DNA from: Bacillus sp. KH172YL63
GTDB taxonomy: Bacteria > Bacillota > Bacilli > Bacillales > Bacillaceae_B
Reading direction: 5' to 3'
Assembly (NCBI RefSeq): GCF_011398925.1
Contig: NZ_AP022842.1
Coordinates: 1,600,001-1,664,000 of the forward strand
Length of the DNA: 64,000 nt
The translations under genes were made by a program, and so were the position numbers. Every line of letters starts with the position of its first letter. Within the stretch, counting starts at the first letter, position 1. The notes below the pieces were generated by a model that ran no database searches, was not told the DNA's origin, and saw only the letters and a list, made by a program, of their open reading frames with translations. This document shows, one piece after another, positions 27,560 through 50,320 of this stretch.

Positions 27560-27599
27560 ATAAACCGGGCTCCCTATTTAGGAGCCCGGTTTATTTTTC
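27560..27599. terminator. Bidirectional terminator, korB and convergent coiled-coil gene
   Basis: 14-bp perfect stem, ATAAACCGGGCTCC / GGAGCCCGGTTTAT, followed by TTTT on the plus strand. The stop codon of the minus-strand gene (27578-27580) lies in the loop, so the hairpin encodes that protein's last residues. This boundary marks the start of the accessory block. Confidence 0.9.
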
Positions 27600-28552
27600 A
27601 GCTTATTGATTTCTTCTATTAAAAGGGAATTCGTAAATTGGAGATGAGCGATGGTGTTTTCTAATTTTTTCATTTCCGGAGATGCTGTGTTTTTCTCTTC
27701 AACTTTGAACAAAGAATCATCTTCCTTCATCTGTTTGATATTTAAACTGACCGATTGGAGTGTTTTCATGTACATCTCCATGTCTTCCCGTTGCTTTTTC
27801 AGTGCATGGTGAAGGGCTCGATTTCTATCCTTAAGCTTCTGTTGAAGGAGGGTGGCTTCATTGTGCTTATTCTCCTCGTCAGTCAAACGCTGGAGGAGGC
27901 CGGCCATTTCCGCTTCCTTATGATTGAATTGATCGATGAGGTCTTCCTTTTCCTTTACCAGTGCCTCAATCTCTATGTTCTGTAATTCAATGGAACGACG
28001 TAATACGTGTTCTTTTGAATGTGCTTCATCTTCACAGCTTTTAATCTGCTCTTCAAGCACCCACATTTCCCATTCCCTCTGCTGCAAGCGCTGCCCCATT
28101 TCTTCATTTGCTGAAAAATATCGCTCTCTTTCAAAGAGCAAGTGGCTGATCGTCGTTTGCAGCGAAAGAACTTCCTGCTGAAACACTTCAGCGCTTTCAT
28201 GCAGTTGTTCATCATATAACTTTGTATCCCTCATATAATGTTGATTGATCTTCCGAAGTTGATCCTTCAGTTGATTGATGGTAAATCGGAGCTTTGACAT
28301 TTCTTTTTCCTGTGCTTTATGAAGGAATACGAATTTTAACGATTGCCCTTCGATTTCTTCTCCCTTCTTTACAATGACATCCTCATATTCTTCAAGCTTC
28401 TTCAGGAGCGCTTGATGTTCTTTTTGAAGTGCTCCGTATTTTCGAACCACAACATTCGATTCCAAGGCTGCGCATCTTTGTTTGTATCGTTCCATCTCTG
28501 ATTTATAATGAATGATCTGCTGCTGAAGCTGGATGGAGGAAAGCTGTTTCAT
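27578..28552 (-). CDS. Coiled-coil protein at left end of the accessory block
   Basis: 324 residues, almost wholly predicted coiled coil (dense Glu/Lys/Gln/Leu heptads such as QKEHQALLKKLEEYE), no signal peptide, no membrane helix, three Cys at most. I recognise no family. The ATG follows AGGAGAAG. A sigma-K-like promoter (AC-N16-CATA) lies at 28581-28605, suggesting mother-cell expression late in sporulation. Similar in style to the coiled-coil genes at 30266 and 49088. A structural spore-layer or scaffold role is inference. Confidence 0.75.
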   Translation of the reverse strand: MKQLSSIQLQQQIIHYKSEMERYKQRCAALESNVVVRKYGALQKEHQALLKKLEEYEDVIVKKGEEIEGQSLKFVFLHKAQEKEMSKLRFTINQLKDQLRKINQHYMRDTKLYDEQLHESAEVFQQEVLSLQTTISHLLFERERYFSANEEMGQRLQQREWEMWVLEEQIKSCEDEAHSKEHVLRRSIELQNIEIEALVKEKEDLIDQFNHKEAEMAGLLQRLTDEENKHNEATLLQQKLKDRNRALHHALKKQREDMEMYMKTLQSVSLNIKQMKEDDSLFKVEEKNTASPEMKKLENTIAHLQFTNSLLIEEINKLKNKPGS

Positions 28553-28580
28553 AAGACTTCTCCTTTCTGTGCGCTTTTAC

Positions 28581-28605
28581 TAGTATGTATATGTGTGAGA
28601 GCGGT
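28581..28605 (-). promoter_or_regulatory. sigma-K-like promoter for the left coiled-coil gene
   Basis: On the minus strand, AC (28604-28605), 16-base spacer, CATACTAGTA. The -10 fits CATA-N3-TA only if one extra base is allowed. It lies about 30 bases before the start codon. Confidence 0.45.
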
Positions 28606-28626
28606 ATGATGCTAATCAACGTAAAT

Positions 28627-28662
28627 AAAGCCATGTAAACTTCCCAGCGTTTACATGGCTTT
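28627..28662. terminator. Orphan hairpin between divergent promoters
   Basis: AAAGCCATGTAAAC / GTTTACATGGCTTT, a perfect 14-bp stem with an 8-base loop, with a short T-rich tail on the plus strand and A-rich flank on the other. No annotated gene ends here. It may stop antisense or divergent read-through, or end an unseen small transcript. Confidence 0.7.
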
Positions 28663-28940: not shown

Positions 28941-28967
28941 ACCAAATTCCTTCTCGTCCATAAGATA
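28941..28967 (+). promoter_or_regulatory. sigma-K promoter of the Cys-rich protein gene
   Basis: AC at 28941-28942, 16-base spacer, CATAAGATA at 28959-28967, a full match to CATA-N3-TA. About 43 bases before the start codon. Confidence 0.72.
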
Positions 28968-29009: not shown

Positions 29010-30170
29010 TTGAAGAAGCGTAAACAAATTAGGGGTTCCCAGACTCCTACACCATCAGCGTCGCCACTACCATTGGATACAAATGATTTGGCTCCGGAAT
29101 GTATCCGCGTAGACAAAGTATATGACTGGGTATTCTTTGCAAACAGATACGAAAACAAGAACTTCATTCCGGATGAAGCATGTCGTGCAACTGTTAGTGA
29201 AGCATTGGCTGGAGGCCAGAGGGTGGAGATTCAAACTGCACCGGTTGATCCAACATCCGTCAATGTGACAGGATCCATCATTGAGAATGGAAATCCTGGT
29301 AAAGTGTTGATCGTTTGGACTGTTCCGGTTGAAGTAACGGTCTTAATTGCTGGAGTAGCGGAGTGTTCATTTACAGTACGTACACAATTTACAGATGAAA
29401 TAATGATGTGTGTACCTACAGGCATTACAAATGACAATTTGAATATCAGAGCGACTCAAGTGATTGCAACATCTGGTGGGGTTTTAATGGGGCCAGATCC
29501 ATTCGGACCGATGATCCCGCTTAGAGTAGTATTATGTAAAGATGTTCAAGTAGAGTACCCTGTTAAACTTGAAGTTCTGGCTAAATTCTGCTTCCCGCGT
29601 CCTAACAACATTCCAGTACCTGAAGAAAGACTTTCTTGCGACCTCAGCCTGCTTGAATTCCCGCGTCAGTGCCCTGGATTATTCCCGGTAGCAAACTGTG
29701 AGTGTCAGGCGACAGCACTTGCCAGAAATGAAGATACCCTTGCAACAATCGGAGGAGAAGTCATCGAAGGTACATCCACACTTAGAGCAGAAATCTGTCA
29801 AGAATGTTCTCTTGCAGACAGCACATGGTCATATTCCTTCACTGACACTGAAGTTGGTCCAACTCCTGCTCCTACTGGAACTGGATTCCAACCGGACTTC
29901 AGCTTTACTTTCGATCCATCTTCCATCGATCGCGTGACTTGCGGAGATACTGCAATGACGGCTGTAGGTGAAGGGATCCGGTACTTTGACGGTGTACCTG
30001 AACAATTATTCTATGAGCTTCAAATCATCGATGCGCCAACTGAAAGCTTCCGCCTGATCTTGAGAAATACTGCAAATGCAGTCATCTTTGACAGCGGACT
30101 TGTAGATGCATTGGTAGAGTTTGGTGAGTGTGATACATTCGCTGACCTATTAGACGGTTTGGATGACTAA
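29010..30170 (+). CDS. Cys-rich acidic protein, probable spore surface component
   Basis: 386 residues with 14 Cys (for example 31, 58, 119, 134, 210, 221, 230, 232, 263, 266, 311, 374), a basic N-terminal tip followed by a Pro/Ser/Thr stretch (SQTPTPSASPLPL), beta-rich body and acidic tail. No signal peptide. I do not recognise the family with certainty. TTG start after AAAGGAAGG. It has its own sigma-K promoter and terminator, so it is a single-gene late sporulation transcript. Disulfide cross-linking in the coat or exosporium is a reasonable inference, with the Ser/Thr stretch a possible glycan site. Confidence 0.72.
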   Translation: MKKRKQIRGSQTPTPSASPLPLDTNDLAPECIRVDKVYDWVFFANRYENKNFIPDEACRATVSEALAGGQRVEIQTAPVDPTSVNVTGSIIENGNPGKVLIVWTVPVEVTVLIAGVAECSFTVRTQFTDEIMMCVPTGITNDNLNIRATQVIATSGGVLMGPDPFGPMIPLRVVLCKDVQVEYPVKLEVLAKFCFPRPNNIPVPEERLSCDLSLLEFPRQCPGLFPVANCECQATALARNEDTLATIGGEVIEGTSTLRAEICQECSLADSTWSYSFTDTEVGPTPAPTGTGFQPDFSFTFDPSSIDRVTCGDTAMTAVGEGIRYFDGVPEQLFYELQIIDAPTESFRLILRNTANAVIFDSGLVDALVEFGECDTFADLLDGLDD

Positions 30171-30209: not shown

Positions 30210-30236
30210 ACATGTATACAAACCATACATAAGATA
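30210..30236 (+). promoter_or_regulatory. sigma-K promoter of the coiled-coil/JAMM operon
   Basis: AC at 30210-30211, 16-base spacer, CATAAGATA at 30228-30236: the same spacing and -10 as upstream of 29010. It starts right after the previous terminator. Confidence 0.72.
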
Positions 30237-30265
30237 ATACAAAGAAATCATTGGGGGTGAAACAG

Positions 30266-31459
30266 ATGGAAGGGGAGGAGCATGCCCAGGGGGCGGGACC
30301 TCATGAAATATTACACGATATCCATAGCATATCAAATGAATTGGAGTCCCTTTATCATCACTATTCACGGAGAATCAAGAATGTGTCAGAAGAACTGTCG
30401 AGGGAAAGAAGCAAACAACGAATATACCAATTGGAAATTGCGGAAAATCATCAAACGATCCAGACACTCACTGAGCAGATTGAATTTTTATTGAGCGAAA
30501 TGGAGGTGAAGCAAGAACTTTACCTTCAATTACAGAAGGAGCAAAGAGATAAGTCATTGCTGGAAGAGGTGCATAAAAGGGATGCTGCATTCACCAAAGT
30601 GGAACAAGGAAAGCTTCACGACCCTCCCGACGACAGTCCGGATGGCATGATGGATTCCGTTCTCCCAACCTCGATCCCGGAAATCAGGGTGATATATGAA
30701 AGTACGCATAACGAATATAAATCATATGTTGAAAAAGTAAAAAATGATGTGATCACAGCATTGATTGATGCAAATCGTGCATTTGTCACCTCATTGGGCC
30801 AAGATATGAAGATAGATGCAGACTACGGCTCATTCTTCAGCTTGCTTGAATGGATTGGTGAGCTGCGAAAGCATTATGAAAAAAAACCGGAAAGGTGGTA
30901 TACAGACATGTGGAATTTTTTATGGGGGAAAGAAACTGAGAACAATCACCCGGAAATCATTAAGAAACTGGATTTGATTGAAGATCAGTTAGTATCTTAT
31001 TCAAATAAAATCAATGAAGTGAAAGCAACGTTGGAAAAGGACAGTGAAAAAGACGAGAAGACACAAGAATATTTACAGAAAATGAATGCATTGCATGAAG
31101 AGTTGAAAAAGATCGAAGGGTACTATGAGGAAGAGCTTGACGCCTTGAAAAATCAGCTCGAAGATATGAAACAAAGGGAAACGGCATTAGAAAAACAAGT
31201 GAATCTTCTGAATGAAGTGAATGACAACAGACAGAAGGAAAAGAACGTCCGGGAATTGGAGATGGAGAAGGAATTGAACGCGCTCCGGGAAAACCTTCAA
31301 ACTCAATCAAACAAGAAAAGCGACTTGTACAAAAAAATGAAGCAGCGGTCCACTGATAAAGCCCCACAAGTGAATCAGCAATTCGAAGAATACGGAAACA
31401 TCCCGATGGACAGTGAATCGAAACGCACGATGTTTAATCCGAATAAATATATCCGCTAA
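30266..31459 (+). CDS. Coiled-coil protein with NPNKYIR tail
   Basis: 397 residues; coiled coil in residues about 15-115 and 240-370, separated by a segment with WIGELRKHYEKKPERWYTDM. It ends in the short motif MFNPNKYIR after a polar linker. No membrane segment or signal peptide. ATG 30266 has GGGGGTG eight bases upstream; a TTG at 30251 would overlap that site. First gene of a sigma-K-driven unit with a 44-residue ORF and a JAMM protease. Family not recognised; the tail could be a protease-recognition or anchoring motif, which is speculation. Confidence 0.75.
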   Translation: MEGEEHAQGAGPHEILHDIHSISNELESLYHHYSRRIKNVSEELSRERSKQRIYQLEIAENHQTIQTLTEQIEFLLSEMEVKQELYLQLQKEQRDKSLLEEVHKRDAAFTKVEQGKLHDPPDDSPDGMMDSVLPTSIPEIRVIYESTHNEYKSYVEKVKNDVITALIDANRAFVTSLGQDMKIDADYGSFFSLLEWIGELRKHYEKKPERWYTDMWNFLWGKETENNHPEIIKKLDLIEDQLVSYSNKINEVKATLEKDSEKDEKTQEYLQKMNALHEELKKIEGYYEEELDALKNQLEDMKQRETALEKQVNLLNEVNDNRQKEKNVRELEMEKELNALRENLQTQSNKKSDLYKKMKQRSTDKAPQVNQQFEEYGNIPMDSESKRTMFNPNKYIR

Positions 31460-31479: not shown

Positions 31480-31614
31480 ATGCAATCAAAGGATCTGAAT
31501 GCAATTTATAAGCAACGAAAAAGTATACCCATTGGCATTAAAAAAGAAGAAAGAATCCAATTGGAAGCAAAAAGAACAAAATTTAAATTCAAAGGCTGCG
31601 GATGTAACGCCTAA
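31480..31614 (+). CDS. 44-residue basic protein with GCGCNA tail
   Basis: Small ORF with a strong ribosome site (GAAAGGGGGGAT, then ATG). The product is rich in Lys and Arg and ends in KFKFKGCGCNA. It lies 20 bases after the coiled-coil gene and 13 bases before the preferred JAMM start, with the JAMM ribosome site (AAGGA) overlapping its stop codon. The frame of the JAMM gene is also open across this stretch, which may hide this ORF from gene callers. Family unknown. The Cys-x-Cys end could bind metal or form disulfides. Confidence 0.55.
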   Translation: MQSKDLNAIYKQRKSIPIGIKKEERIQLEAKRTKFKFKGCGCNA

Positions 31615-31627
31615 GGACTTTGTTATC

Positions 31628-32014
31628 ATGTCCAAGCTTGTCTATATGAGAATCATGCTGGAAGTCAGAAAAGACCTGCCAAATGAAGCCTGTGGGCTGC
31701 TTTCCGGATCAGGCAATCAGTGCCTGACGGTTTGGCCGATGACCAATACGGAGCCCACCCCTTTTTCATTTGCCATCGATCCAGTGGAGCAAGACCGGGT
31801 GATGGAGGAGATGGTTATGAAGAAAGAAACCTTCCTTGGTATTTATCACTCACATCCAAATGGCCGCCCGGTACCATCCAGGGACGATGTGGAATATTCG
31901 CTTTATCCTGATGTGTATTATTTCATTGCTGCTGTTAGTGTAAAGGGAGAAGAGCTCCGCTGCTACAAGATCAATCACGGGAAAGTCCGGCATATCGAAA
32001 TTCTCATTCAATAA
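31628..32014 (+). CDS. JAMM/MPN+ zinc metalloprotease
   Basis: 128-residue Mov34/JAB domain protein. It has the complete JAMM signature HSHPNGRPVPSRDD (His-x-His-Pro-x6-Ser-x2-Asp) and the upstream catalytic Glu in NEACGLLSG, so it should be an active zinc isopeptidase or protease, cytosolic. ATG 31628 is chosen because the JAMM domain starts there and AAGGA lies ten bases upstream; the frame is open to 31499 but those codons overlap the 44-residue ORF. Bacterial JAMM proteins trim C-terminal tails of small sulfur-carrier or ubiquitin-like proteins; here the target may be a neighbouring spore protein, which is inference. Confidence 0.83.
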   Translation: MSKLVYMRIMLEVRKDLPNEACGLLSGSGNQCLTVWPMTNTEPTPFSFAIDPVEQDRVMEEMVMKKETFLGIYHSHPNGRPVPSRDDVEYSLYPDVYYFIAAVSVKGEELRCYKINHGKVRHIEILIQ

Positions 32015-32205: not shown

Positions 32206-32910
32206 GTGAAGGTATCCATTATCATTCCATTCTATAATTGCCCATATGTGGACCGGGCCATCAAAAGCGCTTTAAATCAAACGTATCAACAGGTCGAAGT
32301 CATCCTGGTGGATGATGGTTCCACCGAACATTTTGAAAAAATTAAACCGTTTAAAGATAGAATCAAATATATAAGAAAAGCAAACGGGGGAACAGCTTCT
32401 GCCTTGAACACAGGGTTAAGGCATGCAACAGGCACATATTTTGCTTGGTTGAGCTCAGACGATATGTTTACAGTAGGAAAGATTGAAAGGCAATTGACAT
32501 ATATGCAGGCAATCCGTTCTAAAGTTTCATATACGGCTTTCAAGGTCATAGATGAAAAAGATAAAGTCATAAATGAAATCCATTCAAGGAGAATGACAAA
32601 GAATATGTTCAGGAATGTACTCTTGAAGGCCTGTCCTGTCAATGGATGTACAGTGATGGCAGAAATCGATTTAATTAAGCAGGCAGGATGGTTCGATGAA
32701 TCATTAAAATATACGCAAGACTATGAGATGTGGTGCAGGCTGATGCTTCATACGCGCATGGATTATTTGGATGAGGCACTGGTGCTGTATCGTGTACATC
32801 CGCAGATGGGGTCGGCGAAGAATGGAAAGGGTATGCTGCAGGAATCACAGGCAATACAGAGGAAATACCTGAAATATTTTCAGATGGACCGTAATAAAAA
32901 TAAGAGATGA
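32206..32910 (+). CDS. Family 2 glycosyltransferase
   Basis: 234-residue GT-A fold glycosyltransferase (GT2). N-terminus VSIIIPFYNCPYVDRAIKSAL, nucleotide-binding VDDGS, and the metal-binding acidic motif in AWLSSDDM. Soluble, single domain, no transmembrane segment. GTG 32206 has AAGAGGGG six bases upstream and gives the usual family start; the frame is open to 32134. A CATATACTG box at about 32169 resembles the -10 before the GT2 gene at 42051-42932, but lacks a good -35. Donor and acceptor unknown. Confidence 0.87.
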   Translation: MKVSIIIPFYNCPYVDRAIKSALNQTYQQVEVILVDDGSTEHFEKIKPFKDRIKYIRKANGGTASALNTGLRHATGTYFAWLSSDDMFTVGKIERQLTYMQAIRSKVSYTAFKVIDEKDKVINEIHSRRMTKNMFRNVLLKACPVNGCTVMAEIDLIKQAGWFDESLKYTQDYEMWCRLMLHTRMDYLDEALVLYRVHPQMGSAKNGKGMLQESQAIQRKYLKYFQMDRNKNKR

Positions 32911-33027: not shown

Positions 33028-33930
33028 TCAACAGCGGTACGTATTGCGAATCCCTTCTTCTATTGTATAGGACGGTTTCCATTGAAGAGATGCTGTCGCA
33101 AGTGAATTATCAAGGCAGCTATGTTTAATATCTCCTTGGCGGTCAGCTCCGTGGAATGTCTTGACTTCCGTGTCATGATTTTCTTGTATGAGTTGAATCA
33201 ATTGAAGGATCGAAGTACTTTCTCCTGTACTGATCTGCACGACCAGATTTTTTGGTTCTTCTGCAGCAGCAATATTGGCGTCCACCACGTCTTGCACATA
33301 AATATAATCACGGGTTTGAAGTCCGTCCCCATTAATTTTCAACGCTTCATTTCTTTTGAGTGTTTCAAGGAAGACGGCGATAACCCCGCCTTCCCCTTTC
33401 GATGTCTGCCTTGGGCCATATACATTTCCGTAACGAAGGATGGAGTAGGGAATATTGAATGTGTCATTGTATAACCTGATATATCTTTCTGCTGCATATT
33501 TAGATAACCCATAGAATGAGATGGGATTAGGCGGCTGGATTTCATTGATTTTGTCACACATTACATTGCCGTATACCGCTGAAGTGGAGGAGAAGACAAA
33601 TTTCTTGATTGGGGTCCTTCTGCAAGCTTCCAATAAGTTGATTGTGCCTGCCAAATTTGAGTGCATATCCGAAAAAGGGGAGGAGGTTGACCTCGACACA
33701 TCAGCCTGTGCGGCCATATGGTAGATCACATCCGGCTTTTCATCCAAAATGAGCCGTTGAACACTCGGTGAACATATATCTAATTGATGGAATACGGAGG
33801 AAGGGTGGATGAACTCCTTCTTACCGCTGCTCAGGTTATCAATCACATGAACCGTATCCCCCCTTGAAATGAGGGTATCAACCAAATGGGAACCGATGAA
33901 ACCGGCTCCGCCTGTTACAAATGCTTTCAA
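33028..33930 (-). CDS. NAD-dependent sugar-nucleotide epimerase/dehydratase
   Basis: 300-residue extended SDR of the GalE/UDP-glucose (or UDP-GlcNAc) 4-epimerase type. Cofactor motif VTGGAGFIGSH at the N-terminus, catalytic Ser in FSSTSAVYG, YGLSK, and GDGLQTRDYIYVQDVV near residue 215. TTG 33930 is preferred, since AAGGTGAG lies nine bases upstream and the family N-terminus is kept; GTG 33942 is part of that ribosome site. Transcribed after the GT4 gene, 54 bases apart. Exact substrate not resolvable from sequence. Confidence 0.85.
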   Translation of the reverse strand: MKAFVTGGAGFIGSHLVDTLISRGDTVHVIDNLSSGKKEFIHPSSVFHQLDICSPSVQRLILDEKPDVIYHMAAQADVSRSTSSPFSDMHSNLAGTINLLEACRRTPIKKFVFSSTSAVYGNVMCDKINEIQPPNPISFYGLSKYAAERYIRLYNDTFNIPYSILRYGNVYGPRQTSKGEGGVIAVFLETLKRNEALKINGDGLQTRDYIYVQDVVDANIAAAEEPKNLVVQISTGESTSILQLIQLIQENHDTEVKTFHGADRQGDIKHSCLDNSLATASLQWKPSYTIEEGIRNTYRC

Positions 33931-33984
33931 TGGACATCTCACCTTTTTAAGTTATTAATCTTCTATGTCACTGCAATTAGGATG

Positions 33985-35052
33985 TTACACGCCGATGGAT
34001 TTCAACATTTTATTGAAGTGAAAGGCATATTGTTCATGACTGAATTGAGATTTTAAGTGTAGAAGTGCATTTTCAATAATATATTTACGCAAAGTGGCAT
34101 TTCCCATCAGTTCTTCAGCTTGAACAACAGCCTGTTGAATGTTGCCGAGCTGATAGTATTTACCGGTTTGATTATGAAGAATCGAACTTCTCACACCATC
34201 AGAGTCTGTTGTTAAAACCGGACACCGGCAGCTCATCGCTTCAAGCGGTGAATACGGGGCACCTTCTACTTTCGAAGTAGAACATAAGAAGCCTCCAGAG
34301 TCCCCGATCATGGAAAAATAGCGGGGCATTTGACTGTTGGGCAAATTTTGAAGAAGATGGACAGAATCATCGAGTCCGAGCATACCTTTTAATTGAATGA
34401 AATCCTGTCTCTCTTTTGGAGTGGATAGGCTCGGGTCCTCGAACATGTATAAATCAATGGCAGGGTTTTTTTGACGGAGGTGGTGCCCGATGTGTAGAAA
34501 TTCCCGCCAATTTTTGTTATCTTCCAGCCGTCCGATCCAGGCAATGATCGGACGGTCTTTTTTTGGGAGTTTTTGATACGTGAATGCCATGTGATCAAAG
34601 CAATTGTTGAATTCAAAAATGGGCGTGGATGCAAAGAATTCTCTGAAAATCGCCCCAATATGGGGGGTCTTGGGATAAAGCAGGGCATCACAATATTGTT
34701 GGACAAATGGAATGGCTTTCCCCATTTCAGCCCTGGCAACTTCTTTAGGGCCATAACCCTGTATTTCGAGGATGATTTTCCCCTTATACCCCAACGATCT
34801 GAACCTTTCCATCGCCCTGTAATCCGACGTAATAATCACTGTATCATACTTGCCTTTGTGCAGGATCGCTTTGATTTCCTGGTCATCATTCGTGATGAAC
34901 ACATGGGATCCCTCGTGGTTCAGCAAATTTCTTCGCTTGCTGTAGTAAAGAAAGTCACAGCGGACCCCGGACTTTTGCAGAGCAACCGCCCTTTGTCTGT
35001 TTAACGTTTCGACACCGCCGCTCGGTACGTAAAAGACGAATAGTAATTTCAT
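33985..35052 (-). CDS. Family 4 (GT1 group) glycosyltransferase
   Basis: 355-residue GT-B fold glycosyltransferase. N-terminal Gly-rich acceptor loop VFYVPSGGVETLNRQ, WIGRLEDNKNW at the inter-domain hinge, and the C-terminal donor-site motif EGAPYSPLEAMSCRCPV. ATG 35052 is chosen because TTGGAGGAT precedes it; the ten extra N-terminal residues of the longer frame include that site. Promoter candidate at 35099-35125. Heads a two-gene unit with the epimerase. Confidence 0.88.
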   Translation of the reverse strand: MKLLFVFYVPSGGVETLNRQRAVALQKSGVRCDFLYYSKRRNLLNHEGSHVFITNDDQEIKAILHKGKYDTVIITSDYRAMERFRSLGYKGKIILEIQGYGPKEVARAEMGKAIPFVQQYCDALLYPKTPHIGAIFREFFASTPIFEFNNCFDHMAFTYQKLPKKDRPIIAWIGRLEDNKNWREFLHIGHHLRQKNPAIDLYMFEDPSLSTPKERQDFIQLKGMLGLDDSVHLLQNLPNSQMPRYFSMIGDSGGFLCSTSKVEGAPYSPLEAMSCRCPVLTTDSDGVRSSILHNQTGKYYQLGNIQQAVVQAEELMGNATLRKYIIENALLHLKSQFSHEQYAFHFNKMLKSIGV

Positions 35053-35098
35053 AGGATATCCTCCAATCATGTTTTCGTTCACAAAACAATCCTATTAT

Positions 35099-35125
35099 TT
35101 TTATATGTAAGTGATTCCTTTTTGT
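35099..35125 (-). promoter_or_regulatory. sigma-K-like promoter for GT4/epimerase unit
   Basis: Minus strand: AC (35124-35125), 16-base spacer, CATATAAAA. The final TA of the -10 is AA here, so the match is incomplete. Confidence 0.5.
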
Positions 35126-35314
35126 AGAGGGCTAAGCGGTCATAAATTATAAAAAGGTCCTATTTTATCTGAATCCACTGTCAAAAGATACAAGCTGTAC
35201 ATAGAATATCTAGAGCAGTCATCGGTATTGTCCCTGCCTGTATCAGAAGGAAGAAGCAGCCAGGGGGTACAAGGCCGGTTGATCATAGAAGAAATATAAA
35301 AGAGGTGAGAATGG

Positions 35315-36274
35315 TTGAAAGATTTATACTTGGTCGGGGCAGAACAAAAGTCCAAAGTACTGAAAGATTGGGAACAATTCAAGAAAGCTGTCGTTGTAAA
35401 AATGGACGGCGTGACGAAGCAAGGGGAAAGGGTCATTGAATACACTTCTCCGAAAGAAGTGTGTCCTCTGCATGAAGCTTCCATCTCATTCACGGCGGCG
35501 ACATTGAAAGGAAAGAGGCTGTATGCATGCACCCAAACAGAAATCCTCATCTACAATGCCTTCACTTATAAGTTGGAGGAATACTATAGTTTGCCGTTGT
35601 TCAATGATGTACATCATGTAAGTCCGAGGAGGAACGGGAATATTCTGGTTGTAAACACAGGGCTTGATATGGTTGTGGAACTGAATCCAAATGGAAAGAT
35701 CTTCAATCTGTGGAATGTGATGGGGGAAAATCCGTGGAAGCGGTTTGATCCCAGAATCGATTATAGAAAAGTCCCCACAACTAAGCCTCATCTATCACAT
35801 CCAAATTATGTATTTGAATTGGACGATGATATTTGGGTGACAAGATGCTTGCAAAAAGATGCGATCTGTTTAACAAACCGGGCGAAAAAGATCAATATCG
35901 GCCGTGAACTCATACATGACGGTGTAGTTTATAACGGTAAGATCTATTTCACCCAGGTTGACGGGAGAATCGTCATCGTCAATGCCAAAACGCTGGAAGT
36001 GGAAAGAACCGTAAATTTGGTGCAAATCAGTGGACATAGTGAAAAAATCGGCTGGTGCAGGGGGATCAAACCTATAACCGATAACATCGTATTAGTTGGC
36101 TTCTCCAGGATTCGGCCTGCCAGTGAGAAAAAGGAAGACGGAACGGTGACCTACGTTGGGGGTTATGGTGTTATGCCGACACGCTTATCTTGCTTTGATA
36201 TTAAGGCAAATAAACTTTTGTGGGAAAAGAATCTTGAGGAATTTGATATGAATGTCATCTACTCGATTCATTGA
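35315..36274 (+). CDS. Predicted beta-propeller-like protein of unknown function
   Basis: 319 residues made of repeated short beta-strand units (for example RLYACTQTEILIYNA, NILVVNTGLDMVVELNPNG, KIYFTQVDGRIVIVNA, LLWEKN), which suggests a propeller fold. No signal peptide. TTG start with AGAGGTGAG six bases upstream. A CATAGAATA box at 35200-35208 fits a sigma-E/K -10 but has no matching AC at -35. First of a unit with a 52-residue ORF and a glycosyltransferase. I do not recognise a named family. Confidence 0.7.
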   Translation: MKDLYLVGAEQKSKVLKDWEQFKKAVVVKMDGVTKQGERVIEYTSPKEVCPLHEASISFTAATLKGKRLYACTQTEILIYNAFTYKLEEYYSLPLFNDVHHVSPRRNGNILVVNTGLDMVVELNPNGKIFNLWNVMGENPWKRFDPRIDYRKVPTTKPHLSHPNYVFELDDDIWVTRCLQKDAICLTNRAKKINIGRELIHDGVVYNGKIYFTQVDGRIVIVNAKTLEVERTVNLVQISGHSEKIGWCRGIKPITDNIVLVGFSRIRPASEKKEDGTVTYVGGYGVMPTRLSCFDIKANKLLWEKNLEEFDMNVIYSIH

Positions 36275-37984: not shown

Positions 37985-38056
37985 ATACATCGCAGATGAA
38001 AGGGCTTGATCATATCAGACATACGCCTTTTTTTGAAATAAGGTAAGGAGTCTAGG

Positions 38057-38084
38057 ACATGTCCCGATTAAGAACATAAATATA
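38057..38084 (+). promoter_or_regulatory. sigma-K-like promoter of the deoxyhexosamine operon
   Basis: AC at 38057-38058, 16-base spacer, CATAAATATA at 38075-38084. The -10 has one extra base before the TA. About 28 bases before the start codon. Confidence 0.5.
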
Positions 38085-42050: not shown

Positions 42051-42932
42051 TTAAAAATAGATATTGAACTTTTTAAATAAATCCTCAATATCCATTTTTC
42101 TTCTTCTTACATATTGAGCCCTTTTAGCCAAAACACCATCTTTCAATACTTTCTTCTCTATTTCCAAAGGGGAACCGTGAATGATCAGTGCCTTTGCTTT
42201 TTTAATTCTCTTATCGTCAAAATGGAGGTATGCCATCCGCAATAAGTTATAATAGATGCCTTCATAGTTCACGGTGTACGGGTGACTTACCCTGAATAAA
42301 TGCAGGACAGTCACCTGAGGGTCACAGTGACACCGGTAGCCAAATAACCAGAGTTTTAAGGCGAATTCCACATCTTCGTGACCCCAGGTGGAAAAACCGG
42401 TTTCAAATCCCCCTACGTCTTTGAACACACGCTGAGAGGTGATGATGCAAGCCCCCGGCAAAACGGCTGTTTCAAATAAAGATCGTCGCCTCTGATGCCA
42501 TTTTATTTTTAAGGAAGGGGTAAGGGATTGGCCATACCCCTTGATTGTCGGATCATCAAGAGATCCGATTGCAGGGCATACGGCATCGCTTTTTCCTTGC
42601 AACAGATGATAAAGTAAACGGTCTATCCAGAAATTCTCGAAGGTCATATGAGCGTCGCAAAAGGCAAGATAGGGATATATTGCTTTTTCTGCCCCAAGGT
42701 TCCTGGCATTGGCAGGTCCTACACCATTCGCACGGATATAGGTCACTTTCGAACGATGCGGATAGTTTGCGAGAAAAGCGCAGCATTGATCGTTTGAAGC
42801 ATCATCCACTATGATTGCTTGGATGTCAATTTTCGTTTTGACTGCAAATAATGAATCCAGGGTCATTTTCACATTCTTTCCTTCATTTTTAACCGGGAAA
42901 ATGATTGATATTTTTGGAGGGGTGTTTCCCAT
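42051..42932 (-). CDS. Family 2 glycosyltransferase
   Basis: 293-residue GT2 enzyme: ISIIFPVKNEGKNVKMTLDSL, IVDDAS, the acidic metal motif in LAFCDAHMTF, and a GHEDVEFALKLW segment typical of the polypeptide GalNAc-transferase/chondroitin-type GT2 group. Soluble. ATG with AAGGGAGAG upstream and a sigma-K-like promoter (AC-N16-CATATACTG) 34 bases before the start. Single-gene unit, convergent with the deoxysugar operon. Confidence 0.88.
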   Translation of the reverse strand: MGNTPPKISIIFPVKNEGKNVKMTLDSLFAVKTKIDIQAIIVDDASNDQCCAFLANYPHRSKVTYIRANGVGPANARNLGAEKAIYPYLAFCDAHMTFENFWIDRLLYHLLQGKSDAVCPAIGSLDDPTIKGYGQSLTPSLKIKWHQRRRSLFETAVLPGACIITSQRVFKDVGGFETGFSTWGHEDVEFALKLWLFGYRCHCDPQVTVLHLFRVSHPYTVNYEGIYYNLLRMAYLHFDDKRIKKAKALIIHGSPLEIEKKVLKDGVLAKRAQYVRRRKMDIEDLFKKFNIYF

Positions 42933-42965
42933 GGTTTCTCTCCCTTACGCTGAAAGATTCTATTA

Positions 42966-42992
42966 CAGTATATGTAGAAAGGGTAATTCCGT
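42966..42992 (-). promoter_or_regulatory. sigma-K-like promoter of the minus-strand GT2 gene
   Basis: Minus strand: AC (42991-42992), 16-base spacer, CATATACTG (42966-42974); the last base differs from CATA-N3-TA. Confidence 0.58.
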
Positions 42993-43122
42993 GTCTGTGA
43001 TCGGTAAGGATTGAGAGGATGTTATTGAGTCATTCTTTATAACATGTTTACATAATGGATAATAGTTGTGAAAAACGTGTGATTCACTTCCTTCTGTTTT
43101 AGGGGAATGCTGCAGGTAGCTG

Positions 43123-43167: not shown

Positions 43168-43947
43168 CTATTCCGTTGTAGGGATCGTACAAAGAAAAGC
43201 AGGGTTGGTCAGGTTTTCCTTATTGTACTGAAGGGGCATACCTGTATGCTTAACCAGCACCTGTCCATTTGCTTCTTCCACAATGATCTGACCGGCTGCC
43301 GTATCCCATTCCATCGTCGGGGCGTAGCGGGGGTAATAGTGTGCGGTCCCTTCTGCAACCTGGCAGAACTTCAACGAGCTTCCGATGGATTCATACTGTA
43401 GTTTCAAACCCTTTTGCTGAAGGGATGCAACGTACGCTGAAGTTGCATCATTCAGGTGGGATCTGGACAAGATGACTTTTTTCACTTCTGGAGAGGAGGT
43501 GGCTATTTTCACCATTTTCTTTTTAAGTGGGGAGCTGGCATGGTGTATTTTATATGCGCCCTTTCCTTTTTCAGCACAATACACCATATCCAAAGCAGGG
43601 GCATAGATGACACCCAAGACCGGTCTATTTTCAGAGATAAGAGCGATATTGACTGTGAATTCACCATTTCGCTTAATGAATTCTTTGGTTCCATCCAATG
43701 GATCAACCATCCAAAATGTTTTCCAGCATCTTCTCTCACCGTAAGGCACATCCGATCCCTCTTCACTGAGTATGGGCATTTTCTCAGGCAGCTGTGCCAA
43801 GCTGCCCTGTATCCATTCATGGGATAATTGATCTGCGACAGTCAGGGGGGAGAGGTCAGCTTTTTGTTCTATTTTATACTTCTGATTATATACACCCATT
43901 ATTTTCTGTCCTGCTCCGATGGCAATCTCAATTACTTCGTTCAGCAT
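43168..43947 (-). CDS. cysQ: 3'(2'),5'-bisphosphate nucleotidase (CysQ)
   Basis: 259-residue inositol-monophosphatase-fold enzyme that hydrolyses 3'-phosphoadenosine 5'-phosphate (PAP), the by-product of PAPS-using reactions. Motifs: LSEEGSDV, the metal site VDPLDGTKEF, and EWDTAAGQIIVEEANG near the C-terminus. ATG 43947 follows AGGAG by nine bases; the TTG three codons upstream is too close to that site. Last gene of the minus-strand operon sat-permease-cysC-cysQ. Confidence 0.92.
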   Translation of the reverse strand: MLNEVIEIAIGAGQKIMGVYNQKYKIEQKADLSPLTVADQLSHEWIQGSLAQLPEKMPILSEEGSDVPYGERRCWKTFWMVDPLDGTKEFIKRNGEFTVNIALISENRPVLGVIYAPALDMVYCAEKGKGAYKIHHASSPLKKKMVKIATSSPEVKKVILSRSHLNDATSAYVASLQQKGLKLQYESIGSSLKFCQVAEGTAHYYPRYAPTMEWDTAAGQIIVEEANGQVLVKHTGMPLQYNKENLTNPAFLCTIPTTE

Positions 43948-43990
43948 ATTTTTCAACTCCTGTCATAAAATCACTGCTGATTCATCTTTA

Positions 43991-44590
43991 TCATGGTATC
44001 AATTTTCTTCTTTTTAAATAGAGGAGGATCTGTTGAACAGATTGTTCAACGGTCTGTGTTTCGGTATCAATCACAATTTCAGGAGAGTCTGGCGCTTCAT
44101 ATGGGGAATCTATTCCTGTAAAATCCTTGATCTCCCCATTTTTCACCTTTTTATATAAGCCTTTTGGATCTCTCCTTGAGCATTCCTCAACGCTTGCTTG
44201 AACGTATACTTCGATGAATTCACCTTCAGGAAACAAGGTTCGCACAAGCGCCCGGTCATTTTTAAATGGAGAAATGAAAGCGGTCAATGTGATGATGCCG
44301 GCATCTACAAACAATTTGGATACTTCCCCGATTCTGCGGATGTTTTCTTTACGATCACCATCAGTGAAAGTCAGATCACCGTTCAACCCGTGGCGGATAT
44401 TATCGCCATCAAGGCGATAGGTATGGATCCCTCTTTCAAACAGACCTTTTTCTAGCTCAACTGAAAGGGTGGATTTACCAGACCCGGATAAACCTGTGAA
44501 CCAGATCACTGCACTTTTATGTTGATGAAGGCGGTGCCGGTCTTCTTTTTCAACTTTGCCGCCATGCCAAGAAATATGTTCACTTTTCAA
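43991..44590 (-). CDS. cysC: Adenylylsulfate kinase (APS kinase)
   Basis: 199-residue kinase that phosphorylates APS to PAPS. Walker [22 protein letters not shown], and the lid region [16 protein letters not shown] 44590 is preferred because GAGGTG precedes it by six bases; the longer frame starts immediately after the permease stop without a ribosome site. In this operon it makes PAPS from the APS formed by Sat. Confidence 0.93.
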
Positions 44591-44617
44591 CGCATACACC
44601 TCGATTCCATTATTCAA

Positions 44618-46375
44618 TTATAACCAAAAGAAATGAACTGCCGTAACGGTGGTGATCATGGTGATGATATTCAGCGGGATGCCGATTCTTAAGAAATCCT
44701 TGAACTGATATCCACCTGGACCGTAGACGATTAAGTTGGTCTGATAACCGATCGGGGTCGCAAAGCTTGCAGATGCGGCAATGGTCACAAGTACGGCCAG
44801 TGCGACTGGATCCAGATTCATGGCACTCGATATTTCAAGTGAAATCGGAAACATCATGACCGCGGCTGCACTGTTTGTCATCAACTCTGTAAACACATTG
44901 GTGAGCAGATAAATGGCCGTGATGACGGCGAAAATCCCGAATGGCTGCGATGCTTCCATCAATAAGCTTGCGGCGAATGAAGCCACGCCTGAATTCATCA
45001 AGGCATAACCGATGCCGAATGAGCAGGAAATGATGATCAAGACGTTCCATTGAATCGCGTTCTTTGCAACTTGTGGATGAACGATCCTGAAGAGAAATAG
45101 AATCAAGGCGGCCAAAGTCATACCGGTGAGCATGGAAACAAAGCCAAACGTTACAAGAAGAATCATGGCACCCAGCAGCAAAACCGAAAACCACCCTTGT
45201 TTTTTCTGCTTTTGGGTGAGGATTTTCTTATCAATCGGGGTTACGAGGTAGAAGTCATTTGTATGGATTCTTTTTTGAAATTCAGCCCCGGCTACAAGGA
45301 GGAGACTATCCCCGGGTTTTAAGACAATATCCCCGATCTTGGCCTTCAAGCGCTGGTTTTGCCTGTGGACGGCAATGACAGCGGCATCATATCTGCTTCT
45401 GAAATTCGTTTCTTTTATTCTTTTAAATAATAATGATGAATGGTGTGAAACAACCGCCTGTACCAGTTCGTGATGCCGGGGGAAATCATCCTCGACTGTA
45501 GAGAGCAATTGCAGTCCTTTATTTCCCTGAAGTTCGGTGATGGTGGTAATATCACCGGTGAAAATCAAACGATCATTCGCTTTCAATACGGTGGTATTGG
45601 ATACCGGTGTGATCACACCGGTATCCCGGATGATACTGACCAGGAATAATCCTTTCAGACTTCGGAGTTTCGCCTGTTCCACTGTTTTTTGAATATAAGG
45701 AAAATCTTCGAGGATCAGGACCTCCCCTGTAAATTCCCTTACATTTTCACCTTTTGCCAGAGTGCTTTTCCTTGCAGGCAGGAGATAGTTGCTGAAAAAG
45801 ATAAGGTAACAGAGCCCGATTAAAGTAACCGGGATGCCGACTTTGCTTAATTCGAAGAAAGTGAAACCTCTCAAATTATGATCAAGGAGTAAGCCATGCA
45901 CAACGAGGTTCGTCGATGTGCCAATAAGCGTGATCGTTCCCCCGAGGATTGTCGCATATGAAAGTGGGATAAGGAATTTAGAAGGAGATAGCTGGTGATC
46001 TTCACACCACTTCTTTACAAGTGGCGTAAAGGCAATGACGATCGGTGTGTTATTCAGGAAAGCGGACAGGATGGATACCGGGAAGAGCAGCTTGGCCAGC
46101 ATATGCCTCGAGGAATTGGAGCGGTCCAACAGCTTCAAGAGGGCATGATCGACGATGCCGCTTCCTTGAATGCTGCCGGCAATTAAGAACAATAATCCGA
46201 TTGTCAGCATCCCTTCATTGGAGAAACCTTTGGTTGCTTCCTGTAGAGAAATGACCCCGGTCATGACGAAAAATAGAAGAGTGGAAGGGATGATGATTTC
46301 TGGCCGCTCGATTTCGAAAATCAAACAAGAGAGCATCATGATCATGCCCGCAATGACGATATAAAACTCAATCAT
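44618..46375 (-). CDS. SLC13-family permease with RCK_C domains, probable sulfate transporter
   Basis: 585-residue membrane protein: two blocks of SLC13/DASS transmembrane helices (about 1-190 and 395-585) separated by two TrkA-C/RCK_C domains (about 205-375). Transport signatures [15 protein letters not shown] and [11 protein letters not shown], and [10 protein letters not shown]. Similar fused permeases (SAC1-like group) carry sulfate. It lies between sat (four-base overlap) and cysC, which makes sulfate the most probable substrate. Confidence 0.88.
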
Positions 46376-47556
46376 GTTTTTGTCTCCTTATTGTTTCCCC
46401 CATTCTCTGAATCGGATCTCATTTCTTCCATTAGGATGTCAATTACTTCCGGCCTTGAAAATTCTTTCGGGGGAATGATGCCTTCCCGCAGCATCTGCCG
46501 CACTTTTGTCCCGCTTAGGTGAATATGGAATTCCTGTGAATGCGGACATGTCTTACGGGTTGCCATGGCTGCACATTTCATGCAATAAAAAGCATGATCG
46601 AATTTCAAGATCTCGATTCCTATCTCTTCTTTCGAAAAAGAATGGAAGATTTCCTGAGCATCATAGGTACCGTAATAATCCCCTACACCTGCATGGTCTC
46701 TTCCCACAATGAAGTGGGTACATCCAAAGTTTTTCCTGACAAGGCTGTGAAACACTGCTTCTCTGGGACCTGCATATCTCATGGCCGCCGGGAAAGTGGA
46801 CAGCACTGCTCGATTTTTCGGGTAATATCCATCGAGCAATGCATGATAGCTCCTCATCCGCACAGGAGCAGGAATATCATCCTGTTTTGTATCCCCTACC
46901 AAAGGGTGGATCAATAATCCATCCACATGTTCCAGGGCTGTCTTTTGGATGTATTCATGGGCCCGGTGAATCGGATTCCGTGTTTGAAACGCGACGATGC
47001 TTTTCCATCCTTTTTCTTTGAAGATTTCCCTCAGTTGTTCGGGGGATTTGAAGGAATCTTTAAAAATAGGGGGAAATGCCAGGAGTCTTACTGGCCCTGC
47101 TACATACACATCATCTTTTTCGAATGTTTTCTTTACGCCGGGGTGAAGTTTGTCCAACGTTTTAAAAACGAATAGGGCTTCAGCTTCTTTGCTGTATTCA
47201 TACATTTCCTCTATTTCCATCGTCCCATAAATGACGCCATCTTTCCCTTTGAGGGAGACGGATTCACCAATGGAAAGAGTCTCCTGTAACTGTTTCGGTA
47301 TCGGGAGCGTGATGGGCAGACTCCAGACCAAACCATTTGATAAACGCATGTCCTTCAACACATTTAAATAATCTCTCTGTCCCATGAAGCCTGTCAAAGG
47401 ACTGAAGGCACCTGTAGAAATCAGGACCAAATCAGAAAGGCCCCATGAATCGAGTGTGATGGAGGAGGGGAAGGCAGAAGCCTTTGTCAGCCATAGCTCC
47501 CTTTCTATTCCTTTCATCACAAGGTCAATAAGTTTGCCTCCATGTGGGGAAATCAT
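46372..47556 (-). CDS. sat: Sulfate adenylyltransferase (ATP sulfurylase)
   Basis: 394-residue monofunctional ATP sulfurylase: [30 protein letters not shown], and the Cys-x2-Cys ... Cys-x-His zinc site in [18 protein letters not shown]. It makes APS from sulfate and ATP. ATG 47556 is chosen because AAAGGAGAC lies seven bases upstream; the longer frame includes that site. First gene of the operon. No APS/PAPS reductase gene is present in the window. Confidence 0.95.
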
Positions 47557-47658
47557 ATATATTGTCTCCTTTCTTATCATTCACCATTAGCATACAGGCG
47601 AACGGAATAAATCTATTACTTATACCATTTTATGTAAAACAGCAGCTTAGGAGAGGGC

Positions 47659-48975
47659 TTGATTAGAAAACAAACATCAGCCTATGTAGGTATGCAGAGG
47701 GCTCCTTTACGGCTCAATCATAATTTGAAAGACCGTTTCATAAGATACATAGACTACAACATAAGGGCGGTGAGCCTGGACATGAAATTGATCATCAACA
47801 ATCAGGAATGGGGAGATATCCCGCCCCATGCATTGGCAGTCATCCAGTTCTATTGTGCTGAGAATGATTTGTTGTTTAACGTAAATGAGAAGGAAAATCG
47901 AGCAGAAGTGAAGAGTCCCCTCTATGGAAAAAAGGTCTGGTTGGCTGTCAGTGCGGAGTATGAAACCCTGGGCAACGATATTCAAAAACAGGTGAAAGCA
48001 ACCCTCGCTCCCCATGGGATTCAAGTATTAATGAAGGGCAATCATGAAAGAGTGACCGATGGAGACCTGCTGATCGAGTTAACCTACGTGAAATCATCCG
48101 GAGAGGATCCTTTTATTTCTATTGGATATAATGGAAAATTAAATGCAATCAACGTGAAGAAGATTCTCATGTATAATCAACATTCTTTCCGTTTTAAAGG
48201 CTATTTCCTGATGCCCGACGAACATGACATCCCCCATCTAACATGTGCTGTTAATAGTAGAAACGAGTCCTTACTCATTCAGGAAGGTTCTGGGATATTG
48301 ACTTCATGCATCCTCAAGGCTTTGCTTGGCAACCGGAAGCCGGGGTTGCTTCATCTGGATTTATTGCATTTCTTCCAAATGGGTAACAGCGGGGGAAGGA
48401 AGAAGGAAATGGACAGGGCCGGAAAGAAACATCTTCAAATGGACGATAAAACATATGAAGAGCTCAAAAAACGAAAGGCGAACCGGAAGCCGAGAGAGAC
48501 CGTGGAGAAAAAACCTCATGCTGAAATTTATTTTGATTACAATCTCCTGCCGAATCGAAAACTCGAGCGGTACTCCATAAAAGCAGATTTCTTCATTAAA
48601 AATACCGGCAATGTAGAATTGATGGATCCAAAAATCTGTTTCAGGGTGAATCCTGCTGAAAAGATTGAAATCGGCGGTCAGATCCTCCCGCCAGAAATGA
48701 GCGATATCTTCTCAGTACAAGGGCAAAACGGTGCTCAGGGTTGGAAGTATATGGGGAAAGACTGGCTTGAAAAGGCTTATTCGACGGGGGAGTATTGGAT
48801 TGAAGCCATCAACGGAACCAGCATCCCCCCTGGTGAAACAGCGGTGGTGGAAGGGTTGCAATTCACTGTGGAAAACTTGGAAGAGCAGGAATCTTCCACG
48901 ATCATTGGATTTATATTATGTGAAGAACAAGGACTTCAACTGAGTTCAAATAACAAGATCATGATTACATTCTAA
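47659..48975 (+). CDS. Unknown protein, two-part architecture
   Basis: 438 residues. The first half (to about 250) is mixed alpha/beta with the pattern SSGEDPFISIGYNGKLNA; a Lys/Arg-rich linker follows (about 255-295); the last 140 residues are beta-rich (YSIKADFFIKNTGNVELMDPKICFRVNP) and look like an immunoglobulin-type fold. No signal peptide or membrane segment. TTG start after AGGAGAGGG. Divergent from sat. I recognise no family; the setting suggests a spore-surface or glycan-related protein. Confidence 0.72.
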   Translation: MIRKQTSAYVGMQRAPLRLNHNLKDRFIRYIDYNIRAVSLDMKLIINNQEWGDIPPHALAVIQFYCAENDLLFNVNEKENRAEVKSPLYGKKVWLAVSAEYETLGNDIQKQVKATLAPHGIQVLMKGNHERVTDGDLLIELTYVKSSGEDPFISIGYNGKLNAINVKKILMYNQHSFRFKGYFLMPDEHDIPHLTCAVNSRNESLLIQEGSGILTSCILKALLGNRKPGLLHLDLLHFFQMGNSGGRKKEMDRAGKKHLQMDDKTYEELKKRKANRKPRETVEKKPHAEIYFDYNLLPNRKLERYSIKADFFIKNTGNVELMDPKICFRVNPAEKIEIGGQILPPEMSDIFSVQGQNGAQGWKYMGKDWLEKAYSTGEYWIEAINGTSIPPGETAVVEGLQFTVENLEEQESSTIIGFILCEEQGLQLSSNNKIMITF

Positions 48976-49022
48976 GCAAATGCCCTGCATATAACGATTC
49001 ATACGGATGCATTGGCAAACTG

Positions 49023-49079
49023 AAAAAATCCGAACGCTCAATCGACTCTTCTGGGAGAAATCGAATTCGTTCGGATTTA
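49023..49079. terminator. Bidirectional terminator (CCGAACG type)
   Basis: AAATCCGAACG pairs with CGTTCGGATTT around a 31-base loop; it separates two convergent genes. Confidence 0.83.
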
Positions 49080-49087
49080 TCTATGTT

Positions 49088-50290
49088 TCAGTCGTCCGCT
49101 TGTTTTATTGGAATAGTGGACTCAGGCTGTGGCTTAGGTCTATGGTTGATTACACGGGTTTGGCTTCTCTTCTGATTTTCCACCAGCCGTTTCAGTTCAA
49201 ATAGATTATGAGTCAACTTTGCATTATGGTCACGGATGTTTTCAACTTCTTCTATGAAGGACAGGAATCGGTCCTCTACCTCTTTAAACTTTCCGGCAAA
49301 ATCCTCTTTTTGTAGTGAAAAATGTAATTCATGACTTTGCTCGATGTCCCCGATCCGTTCATCTTGCTTCTTCCGTTGCTGATCAATGTCTGCAAATTGC
49401 GAAGACAGCCACCATTCATTTTCCTCGATATGTTGGTGAAATTGTGACAGGAAATCCTTCATATAATGCAATTTCTCCTGTTCGGCTTCTATCAGGTGAT
49501 TCTTTGAAAATTCTAAAGCATCCAGTGTATGTTGCCTTTCAGCCATCAGTTTCTCCAATTCTTCCGCTTTCGTTAAAAGAGTATGGAAAAGCTCTTTCTT
49601 CGTATTTTCAGAGTGGGAGAGGGCAGCATTTAAATCGGTGATATGCTGCTGTTGACTCTCGGTTAATGTAGTCAATGAGTGGATCTCCTGTAATAATGTT
49701 TGTTTTGTTTTTTGAAGATCCTTGTTTTCACCCGAGAGGTGATTCTTCCTGGCATTCAATTCTGACAGGGAGTCAGCATGAAGCTTCAGCTCATATTCAG
49801 TGTGAGAAAGCTGCTTCTCCAATGCATGAATGCTGTCTGTCTTTTCTTGAAGGGATTGGTTCTTAAGGAGCAGCTCTCCGGTAAGTGCCTTGATCTCCTG
49901 TTGCAGATTTTCAATGGAAAATGACAGATGAGTACATTCATTTTCCTTTAGAACAAGGTCTTTCTCAGTGTGTTTCATTTTTCCTGCCTGCTCGAGGAGC
50001 AATTCTTCTTTTATATGAAGCTTCTGATGAAGGGCATTCACTTCGGCTTCAAGTTTTTCCTTTTCAGTTTGAAACCGGTTGCGGTCACGGATCAATTCTT
50101 CCTGAATGATTTCGCTACATTCTAATGCTTCATGACTGATCTCTATTTCAGCCTCCTTCTCAGAAGCAACCTTTTTGAAATGCTGGACCTCTGCGTAAAG
50201 GTAGCTTTCTTGTAATCTCTTTATCGTTTGATTTAATTCATCGATTTTGGAAAGGTAATATAATTTTTCTTGATTTTCTATGTTGTACAT
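49088..50290 (-). CDS. Coiled-coil protein at right end of the accessory block
   Basis: 400 residues from the ATG, nearly all coiled coil (residues about 8-370), then a basic Pro-rich tail (NHRPKPQPESTIPIK). No membrane segment. The ATG at 50290 has no ribosome site. A perfect GGAGG lies eight bases before an in-frame ATT at 50315-50317, which would add MAKKDIKTP. A sigma-K-like promoter (AC-N17-CATAACGTA) precedes it. With the gene at 27578-28552 and that at 30266-31459 it forms a set of coiled-coil proteins. Function unknown. Confidence 0.75.
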   Translation of the reverse strand: MYNIENQEKLYYLSKIDELNQTIKRLQESYLYAEVQHFKKVASEKEAEIEISHEALECSEIIQEELIRDRNRFQTEKEKLEAEVNALHQKLHIKEELLLEQAGKMKHTEKDLVLKENECTHLSFSIENLQQEIKALTGELLLKNQSLQEKTDSIHALEKQLSHTEYELKLHADSLSELNARKNHLSGENKDLQKTKQTLLQEIHSLTTLTESQQQHITDLNAALSHSENTKKELFHTLLTKAEELEKLMAERQHTLDALEFSKNHLIEAEQEKLHYMKDFLSQFHQHIEENEWWLSSQFADIDQQRKKQDERIGDIEQSHELHFSLQKEDFAGKFKEVEDRFLSFIEEVENIRDHNAKLTHNLFELKRLVENQKRSQTRVINHRPKPQPESTIPIKQADD

Positions 50291-50320
50291 CGGGGTCTTG
50301 ATGTCTTTCTTAGCAATCGG

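Follow-up and report, generated by a model that had tools for sequence, protein, structure and literature searches.

Between the core genes korB and miaB of Bacillus sp. KH172YL63 lies an island that is probably a sigma-K-dependent mother-cell locus, predicted to make and sulfate a glycan on the outermost layer of the spore (exosporium or crust). It lies in a stretch of 64,000 nucleotides (contig NZ_AP022842.1, positions 1,600,001 to 1,664,000), hereafter the window, to which all coordinates below refer (+ and - give the strand). korB ends at 27557 and miaB starts at 50573, a spacing of 23,016 bp, and the genes 3' of miaB match ricA and cotE by synteny. Identification by open reading frames (ORFs) and Pfam/NCBIfam profiles gave 20 convincing genes in this interval, so the block of about 22 genes claimed in the original prediction is real, with a somewhat lower gene count. 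Gene clusters for spore glycans have been described before; what is new here is that sulfate activation and sulfotransferases are built in, and a literature search turned up no sulfated spore glycan.

An outer-spore role of the island is well supported, because it holds a member of the BMQ_0737 family, which among the sampled genomes is confined to those with SpoIVA, because its units are preceded by sigma-K-type boxes, because a CotZ block adjoins it in relatives and because the pair of CysR and p438 recurs elsewhere. The Cys-rich protein CysR (29010..30170, +), whose TTG start agrees with the N-termini of its orthologues, narrowly passes the cut-off of NF052457, the BMQ_0737 family of morphogenetic spore coat proteins (73.7 bits vs 71). 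Excerpts of a study of B. megaterium spores place BMQ_0737 among their outermost proteins (PMC4656864). The likeness of CysR to BMQ_0737 of Priestia megaterium QM B1551 lies in this cut-off; unlike it, CysR, a protein of 386 aa, contains TP-rich segments and has glycan and sulfate genes as its neighbours. Among 398 genomes of the class, NF052457 was found in 62 (60 over the cut-off), all of them among the 267 with SpoIVA (P 1e-12, uncorrected for kinship). The block had been expected to be absent from non-sporulating relatives, and for the Cys-rich family, the part to which this comparison applies, every carrier is SpoIVA-positive.

In relatives, CysR belongs to a constant frame together with CCb (30251..31459, +), the family 2 glycosyltransferase GT2b (42051..42932, -; PF00535), p438 (47782..48975, +; start placed by orthologues) and CCc (49088..50290, -). 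CCb, CCc and the 324-aa CCa at the other end of the island (27578..28552, -) are coiled-coil-type proteins, called by eye and without a Pfam family, so the coiled-coil proteins foreseen at both ends are there, with a third inside. The Cys-rich protein was likewise found as described, as was a JAMM-type metallopeptidase (31499..32014, +; Prok-JAB PF14464, E 1.8e-19; HSH-x10-D motif by eye). A block with CotZ (PF10612), DUF7852 proteins and an Alp7A-like actin is present in the korB-miaB interval of 8 of 28 genus genomes, namely seven framed intervals, in which the frame adjoins it, and G014 (genomes and loci of our survey carry G and L numbers). We also observed that the actin of this second block (L021, L035, L043, L045, L048, L049, L052, L053 and L073), which occurs in G022 as well, is of plasmid-segregation type and is accompanied, inside a spore-coat block, by a small partner.

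To assess promoters, AC-N16/17-CATA, which we take to be the sigma-K consensus, was counted in 300-bp upstream regions of clustered genes and compared with shuffles. The box is conserved 5' of six units: CysR (18/20 regions, 1.7 expected), CCb (20/20, 1.4), GT4a (15/16, 3.2), wecB (13/14, 1.0), GT2b (21/21, 3.1) and CCc (18/24, 4.2; distances vary with the called starts). This agrees with the earlier claim of boxes before at least six units, and the box-to-start distance is near-constant for most of them, CCc excepted. In the strain studied, these boxes lie at 28941..28967 (+) for CysR and 30210..30236 (+) for CCb, both AC-N16-CATAnnnTA, at 35098..35127 (-), 38055..38084 (+) and 42965..42994 (-) for GT4a, the sugar operon beginning with wecB and GT2b, all AC-N16-CATA, and at 50350..50377 (-) for CCc (AC-N17-CATAnnnTA). 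No box was found 5' of the presumed operon-internal genes for JAMM (0/15), capE (0/14) and GT4b (0/11), and the reverse-strand control was low for most units (CCb 2/20, wecB 0/14, CCc 0/24, GT4a 3/16, GT2b 5/21). The boxes of p438 were weak (5/20, 2.5 expected).

Within the window, AC-N16-CATAnnnTA occurs 5 times vs 1.17 expected (5 reached by 1 of 100 shuffles) and AC-N17-CATAnnnTA 3 times vs 1.07 (3 reached by 11 of 100). Five of these eight long-form boxes precede CCa (at about 260 bp), CysR, CCb, CCc and cotE, two lie within island ORFs and one is outside the island. For the short form, the island is only modestly enriched, as it makes up 36% of the window and holds 25 of the 52 matches; the promoter claim therefore rests on the conservation test. 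A further box 5' of CCa (28578..28607, -) marks the weakest unit claimed. Upstream of sat, a promoter-like region (47625..47684, -; hand-counted coordinates) contains a CATA element and a T[AG]GG[CT] block, both conserved in 13/13 aligned genomes, which may be read as sigma-K plus GerE elements if our assumed consensus sequences apply.

As judged from sequence, the island encodes enzymes predicted to make the nucleotide of a 2-acetamido-2,6-dideoxyhexose, and four glycosyltransferases. The sugar-nucleotide genes (38113-41894), whose presence had been predicted, comprise a CapG/WecB-type UDP-sugar 2-epimerase (wecB, 38113..39207, +; TIGR00236 over cut-off), a CapE/PseB-type UDP-N-acetylglucosamine 4,6-dehydratase (capE, 39197..40189, +; PF02719), a 273-aa RmlD-type reductase (rmlD, 40186..41007, +; best Pfam match PF04321) and an NAD epimerase/dehydratase (gmd, 40989..41894, +; PF01370, PF16363). 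The best PDB match of the 2-epimerase is CapG (7ya2, E 1e-98), and the matches of the dehydratase (2gn4, 3vvb) include CapE; the PseB and FnlA NCBIfam scores are below their cut-offs. Two of the three enzymes thus match CapE and CapG of the Staphylococcus pathway to UDP-N-acetyl-L-fucosamine (UDP-L-FucNAc). CapF has a reductase plus a cupin domain; the RmlD-type middle enzyme of the island lacks any cupin family in Pfam, and the sugar may therefore be similar to N-acetylquinovosamine or N-acetylrhamnosamine rather than N-acetylfucosamine.

Five glycosyltransferases had been claimed, and only four proteins have such domains in Pfam: GT2b, GT2a (family 2, 32206..32910, +; PF00535), GT4a (33985..35052, -) and GT4b (36488..37702, +), the latter two of family 4 (PF00534). 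Two other genes in this part encode a GalE-like NAD epimerase (33028..33942, -; PF01370) and a 319-aa protein that is perhaps beta-propeller-like (35315..36274, +; PF16819 match weak and below cut-off). The CapE and CapG matches are enzyme types of capsule clusters, and the permease and sugar genes bear no intrinsic spore signature, as would be expected if the island made a vegetative capsule or S-layer glycan and lay near cotE by chance. We consider this highly improbable: no flippase, polymerase or initiating undecaprenyl-phosphate sugar transferase was recognised by Pfam/NCBIfam among the 20 island proteins (Pfam assigns no family to the coiled-coil proteins, to CysR or to p438), and the conserved boxes, the SpoIVA-bound coat family and the seven intervals in which the frame adjoins the CotZ/DUF7852 block also speak against it. 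An outer-spore glycan island is the likely reading.

The predicted sulfate set (43168-47556) was also found. It has genes for synthesis of 3'-phosphoadenosine 5'-phosphosulfate (PAPS) and removal of 3'-phosphoadenosine 5'-phosphate (PAP), all over their cut-offs: Sat, an ATP sulfurylase (46372..47556, -; TIGR00339), CysC, an adenosine 5'-phosphosulfate kinase (43991..44590, -; TIGR00455), and CysQ, a PAP phosphatase (43168..43947, -; TIGR01331). The SLC13/DASS-type permease among them (44618..46375, -; PF03600 and PF00939 over cut-offs) is likely a sulfate importer, as far as its substrate can be deduced from its family. This operon is distinct from the assimilation genes at 1.99-2.00 Mb, read as cysH (PF01507), permease, sat, cysC and sulfite reductase, which are under an S-adenosylmethionine (SAM) riboswitch; in the 64-kb window no Rfam match reached the gathering score. 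In a midpoint-rooted tree of 42 cysC rows, the 13 island copies group with those of G011 and G028 in one clade (98/92), and ten housekeeping copies of the genus form a separate one (100/99). Taken as a whole, the island-linked copies do not make up a single clade (three changes), as those of G036, G042, G486, G043 and of two Priestia plasmids lie in other parts of the tree; therefore the link between island and cysC may have arisen more than once.

If the island makes an outer-spore glycan, the operon might still serve another purpose, the supply of reduced sulfur for late synthesis of the Cys-rich coat protein. That protein is Cys-rich indeed, CysH is encoded in the genome, and no intact sulfotransferase was found in the island of the strain studied. 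We regard this use as unlikely, since neither a PAPS reductase nor a sulfite reductase was recognised among the island proteins by Pfam/NCBIfam, a riboswitch-controlled set exists elsewhere, and sulfotransferases were found within operon-bearing islands and in none of the 19 genus genomes without the operon.

Sulfotransferases of three Pfam families were searched genome-wide in 61 genomes. They were found in the islands of G005 (two), G007 (two), G018, G020 (two) and G031, and the G002 island holds a candidate without a sulfotransferase Pfam match. In the genus, 10/17 genomes with the operon have one vs 0/19 without (P 8e-5), counts which retain eight genomes outside the 28 intervals (G008, G009, G011, G015, G019, G022, G028 and G033), with operon presence taken from loci for G011, G028 and G022 (L065, L066, L073) and from cysC matches alone for G015, and with G009 and G019 scored negative from incomplete or broken data. 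For intact intervals only, the counts are 7/13 vs 0/15 (P 0.001). In the strain studied, tblastn with the G005 island sulfotransferase revealed a remnant of a PF03567-type gene (37861..37941, +; 27 aa at 56%, E 1e-7 within the gap) between GT4b and wecB, just where G005 and G020 carry intact sulfotransferase genes. We note that remnants extend over 37744-37941, and that scraps are present at the corresponding site in G021 and, weakly, in G012. The island sulfotransferase may thus have been lost repeatedly.

Several observations weigh against a sigma-K-dependent island that sulfates its glycan. When only framed islands are counted, sulfotransferases are weakly associated with the operon (7/13 vs 0/7, P 0.04), 7/17 operon-carrying genus genomes have no recognised sulfotransferase, and all P values are overstated, as the genomes compared are related. 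In the island of the strain studied, tblastn detected no intact sulfotransferase, only the remnant, and the sole other one recognised, at 4.199 Mb of the single-contig 4.25-Mb genome, lies beside apparent L,D-transpeptidase and major facilitator superfamily genes without an AC-N16/17-CATA box. With regard to promoters, boxes are weakly or not conserved at CCa (7/14, 3.1 expected), galE (5/15, 2.5), GT2a (2/19, 2.2) and sat (4/13, 1.3), and CATAnnnTA 5' of sat is present in 12/13 genomes and missing in the strain studied (CATAAAATG). In addition, reverse-strand counts are high for CysR (16/20) and the 319-aa gene (10/14), which share their upstream regions with divergent CCa and GT4a, and reach 7/8 for two second-block genes.

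Because only the remnant and the distant gene were recognised, the sulfation step is the weakest link in the strain studied. The sulfate operon there could be a relic, the glycan still being made and its sulfation having ended when the island sulfotransferase decayed, a scenario that the remnant and the scraps in G021 and G012 favour. We give it little probability: all four sulfate genes are open in this strain, 12 other islands carry the same four, and this strain (G000) and G005 share another sulfotransferase, the one at 4.199 Mb, whose G005 relative has a similar neighbourhood by eye. For the genus, sulfation of the glycan seems the more probable state on this gene content, and in the strain studied it may occur.

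The comparison of the korB-miaB interval, suggested with the original prediction, showed that the block is an exchangeable island of the genus, by inference Rossellomorea. Of the 61 genomes searched for korB and miaB, 28 of the genus had both on one contig. Their spacings are 585-1,769 bp in six, 5,043 bp in one and 15-32 kb in 21. Of the 25 genomes from other families, 20 had both genes on one contig, with spacings of 136-5,062 bp. By gene maps, the frame occupies 20 of the 28 intervals, with JAMM in 19 of these 20, and six intervals are near-empty, of which four still retain CCc by clustering. CCa orthologues cluster in 14 of the 20 framed islands; the CCa-like genes of G002, G018, G020, G026, G027 and G034, like the CCc-like gene of G024, fell outside their clusters, and the greedy ORF caller misplaced some starts (CysR in G000, G010 and G032; p438; CCc).

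Around this frame, the glycan and sulfate cassettes are optional and come and go. The wecB-capE-rmlD-gmd set is present in 14 islands, the other six framed islands having different glycan genes, and the cysQ-cysC-SLC13-sat set in 13 of the 28 intervals, all of them framed. The single late mother-cell system for a decorated outer layer proposed at first therefore holds for the outer layer and not for one system, as the locus is a frame plus optional cassettes. Outside the genus, the korB-miaB interval of Cytobacillus spongiae contains CysR, JAMM, GT2b and p438 plus other glycan genes. There (L086), an annotated alginate-lyase-family protein and a nucleotide sugar dehydrogenase replace the deoxyhexosamine set; G017 and G035 (L022, L024) have genes similar in size and place, which suggests a glycan type with uronic acid.

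The frame is also met at other loci and in other families. A profile of the p438 C-domain matched 191 of 397 genomes of the order Bacillales at E 1e-12. Six of eight loci with close p438 relatives are named Rossellomorea and two Bacillus sp. Twenty p438 loci outside the genus (L087-L106) were chosen for their score and to cover many genera, without regard to sulfate content; the set skips G722, G477, G680, G719, G528, G572, G660 and G460 (higher- or equal-ranking, mostly genus repeats), and three of the stretches end at contig ends. A CysR-type gene lies within 2 kb of p438 in 19 of the 20, some matches being weak (27-69 bits in L089, L091 and L097), and JAMM is in the stretch in 14; in the studied island, the glycan and sulfate genes keep CysR and p438 about 17 kb apart. 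A sulfotransferase or sat/cysC stands beside the frame in 5/20, a raw count with no random-stretch baseline. At another locus of G011 and G028, GT4a, a sulfotransferase, wecB, capE, rmlD, gmd, GT2b, cysC, SLC13, sat and p438 lie together, some of them split. Of other families, G036 combines SLC13, cysC, sugar genes, glycosyltransferases, CysR (64% identical) and p438, and G040 a weak CysR match, p438, sugar genes and two sulfotransferases.

The N-domain of p438 has the Amidase_3 fold, with no Pfam match for its sequence. By eye it reads ISIGYN at the place of the histidine motif, which in Amidase_3 is presumably of ISIHAN type; the domain apparently lacks a usual zinc histidine. As further observations, G001 has three tandem CysR-like genes (34-35% identical) near p438 (L081, 9741-13575) and a korB-miaB interval of 1.4 kb, and G043 (L071-L072) has, within about 30 kb and without the spore frame, three sulfotransferase-like genes, a pathway similar to that of sialic acid (by eye) and cysC-sat.

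Related systems are known from other spores. The sps crust genes of B. subtilis and the BclA glycan genes of the B. cereus group serve in the mother cell to make glycans of the outermost spore layer, a likeness to the proposed role of the island; to our knowledge these clusters have no sulfate-activation genes, by which the island differs. Genes for wecB-capE-rmlD, NAD epimerases and glycosyltransferases, from the same families as those of the island, are also found on plasmid pBM600 of P. megaterium QM B1551. Excerpts of the report on this plasmid state that strains without pBM600 have no exosporium, with a role of pBM500 not excluded by its authors (PMC4674009). Unlike the island, pBM600 is a plasmid and has no cysC in the 23-kb stretch examined. 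A cysC gene does lie close to glycan genes, of this set or another, on two other Priestia plasmids. On these two (L084, L085), cysC is accompanied by a TauE/SafE-type transporter, and one has spore coat genes nearby as well. They are possibly an independent sulfated-spore system.

Under our preferred reading of a sigma-K-dependent island, the glycan would be assembled onto coat proteins late in sporulation, within the cytoplasm of the mother cell, and CysR might offer its TP-rich segments as attachment sites. Sat and CysC, with the likely sulfate importer, would supply PAPS, from which a sulfotransferase would transfer sulfate to the glycan, and CysQ would dispose of PAP. The coiled-coil proteins, p438 and the JAMM protease may help to assemble the layer, and the glycan and sulfate parts would be swapped between strains like a serotype locus. 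Because the frame recurs across families, with sulfotransferase or PAPS genes at five of the 20 sampled loci, we see an even chance that many Bacillaceae endospores have sulfated outermost glycans, with a transferable CysR-JAMM-p438 frame and swappable glycan and PAPS/sulfotransferase cassettes acting as a spore 'serotype' locus.

Finally, spore-surface glycans determine the adhesion, charge and recognition of spores, and this island hints at sulfated sugars on some bacterial spores. If the reading is true, sulfated spore surfaces would be a testable and possibly common trait, and the BMQ_0737 and p438 families would both gain partners. The presence/absence variation among close relatives provides natural knock-outs.

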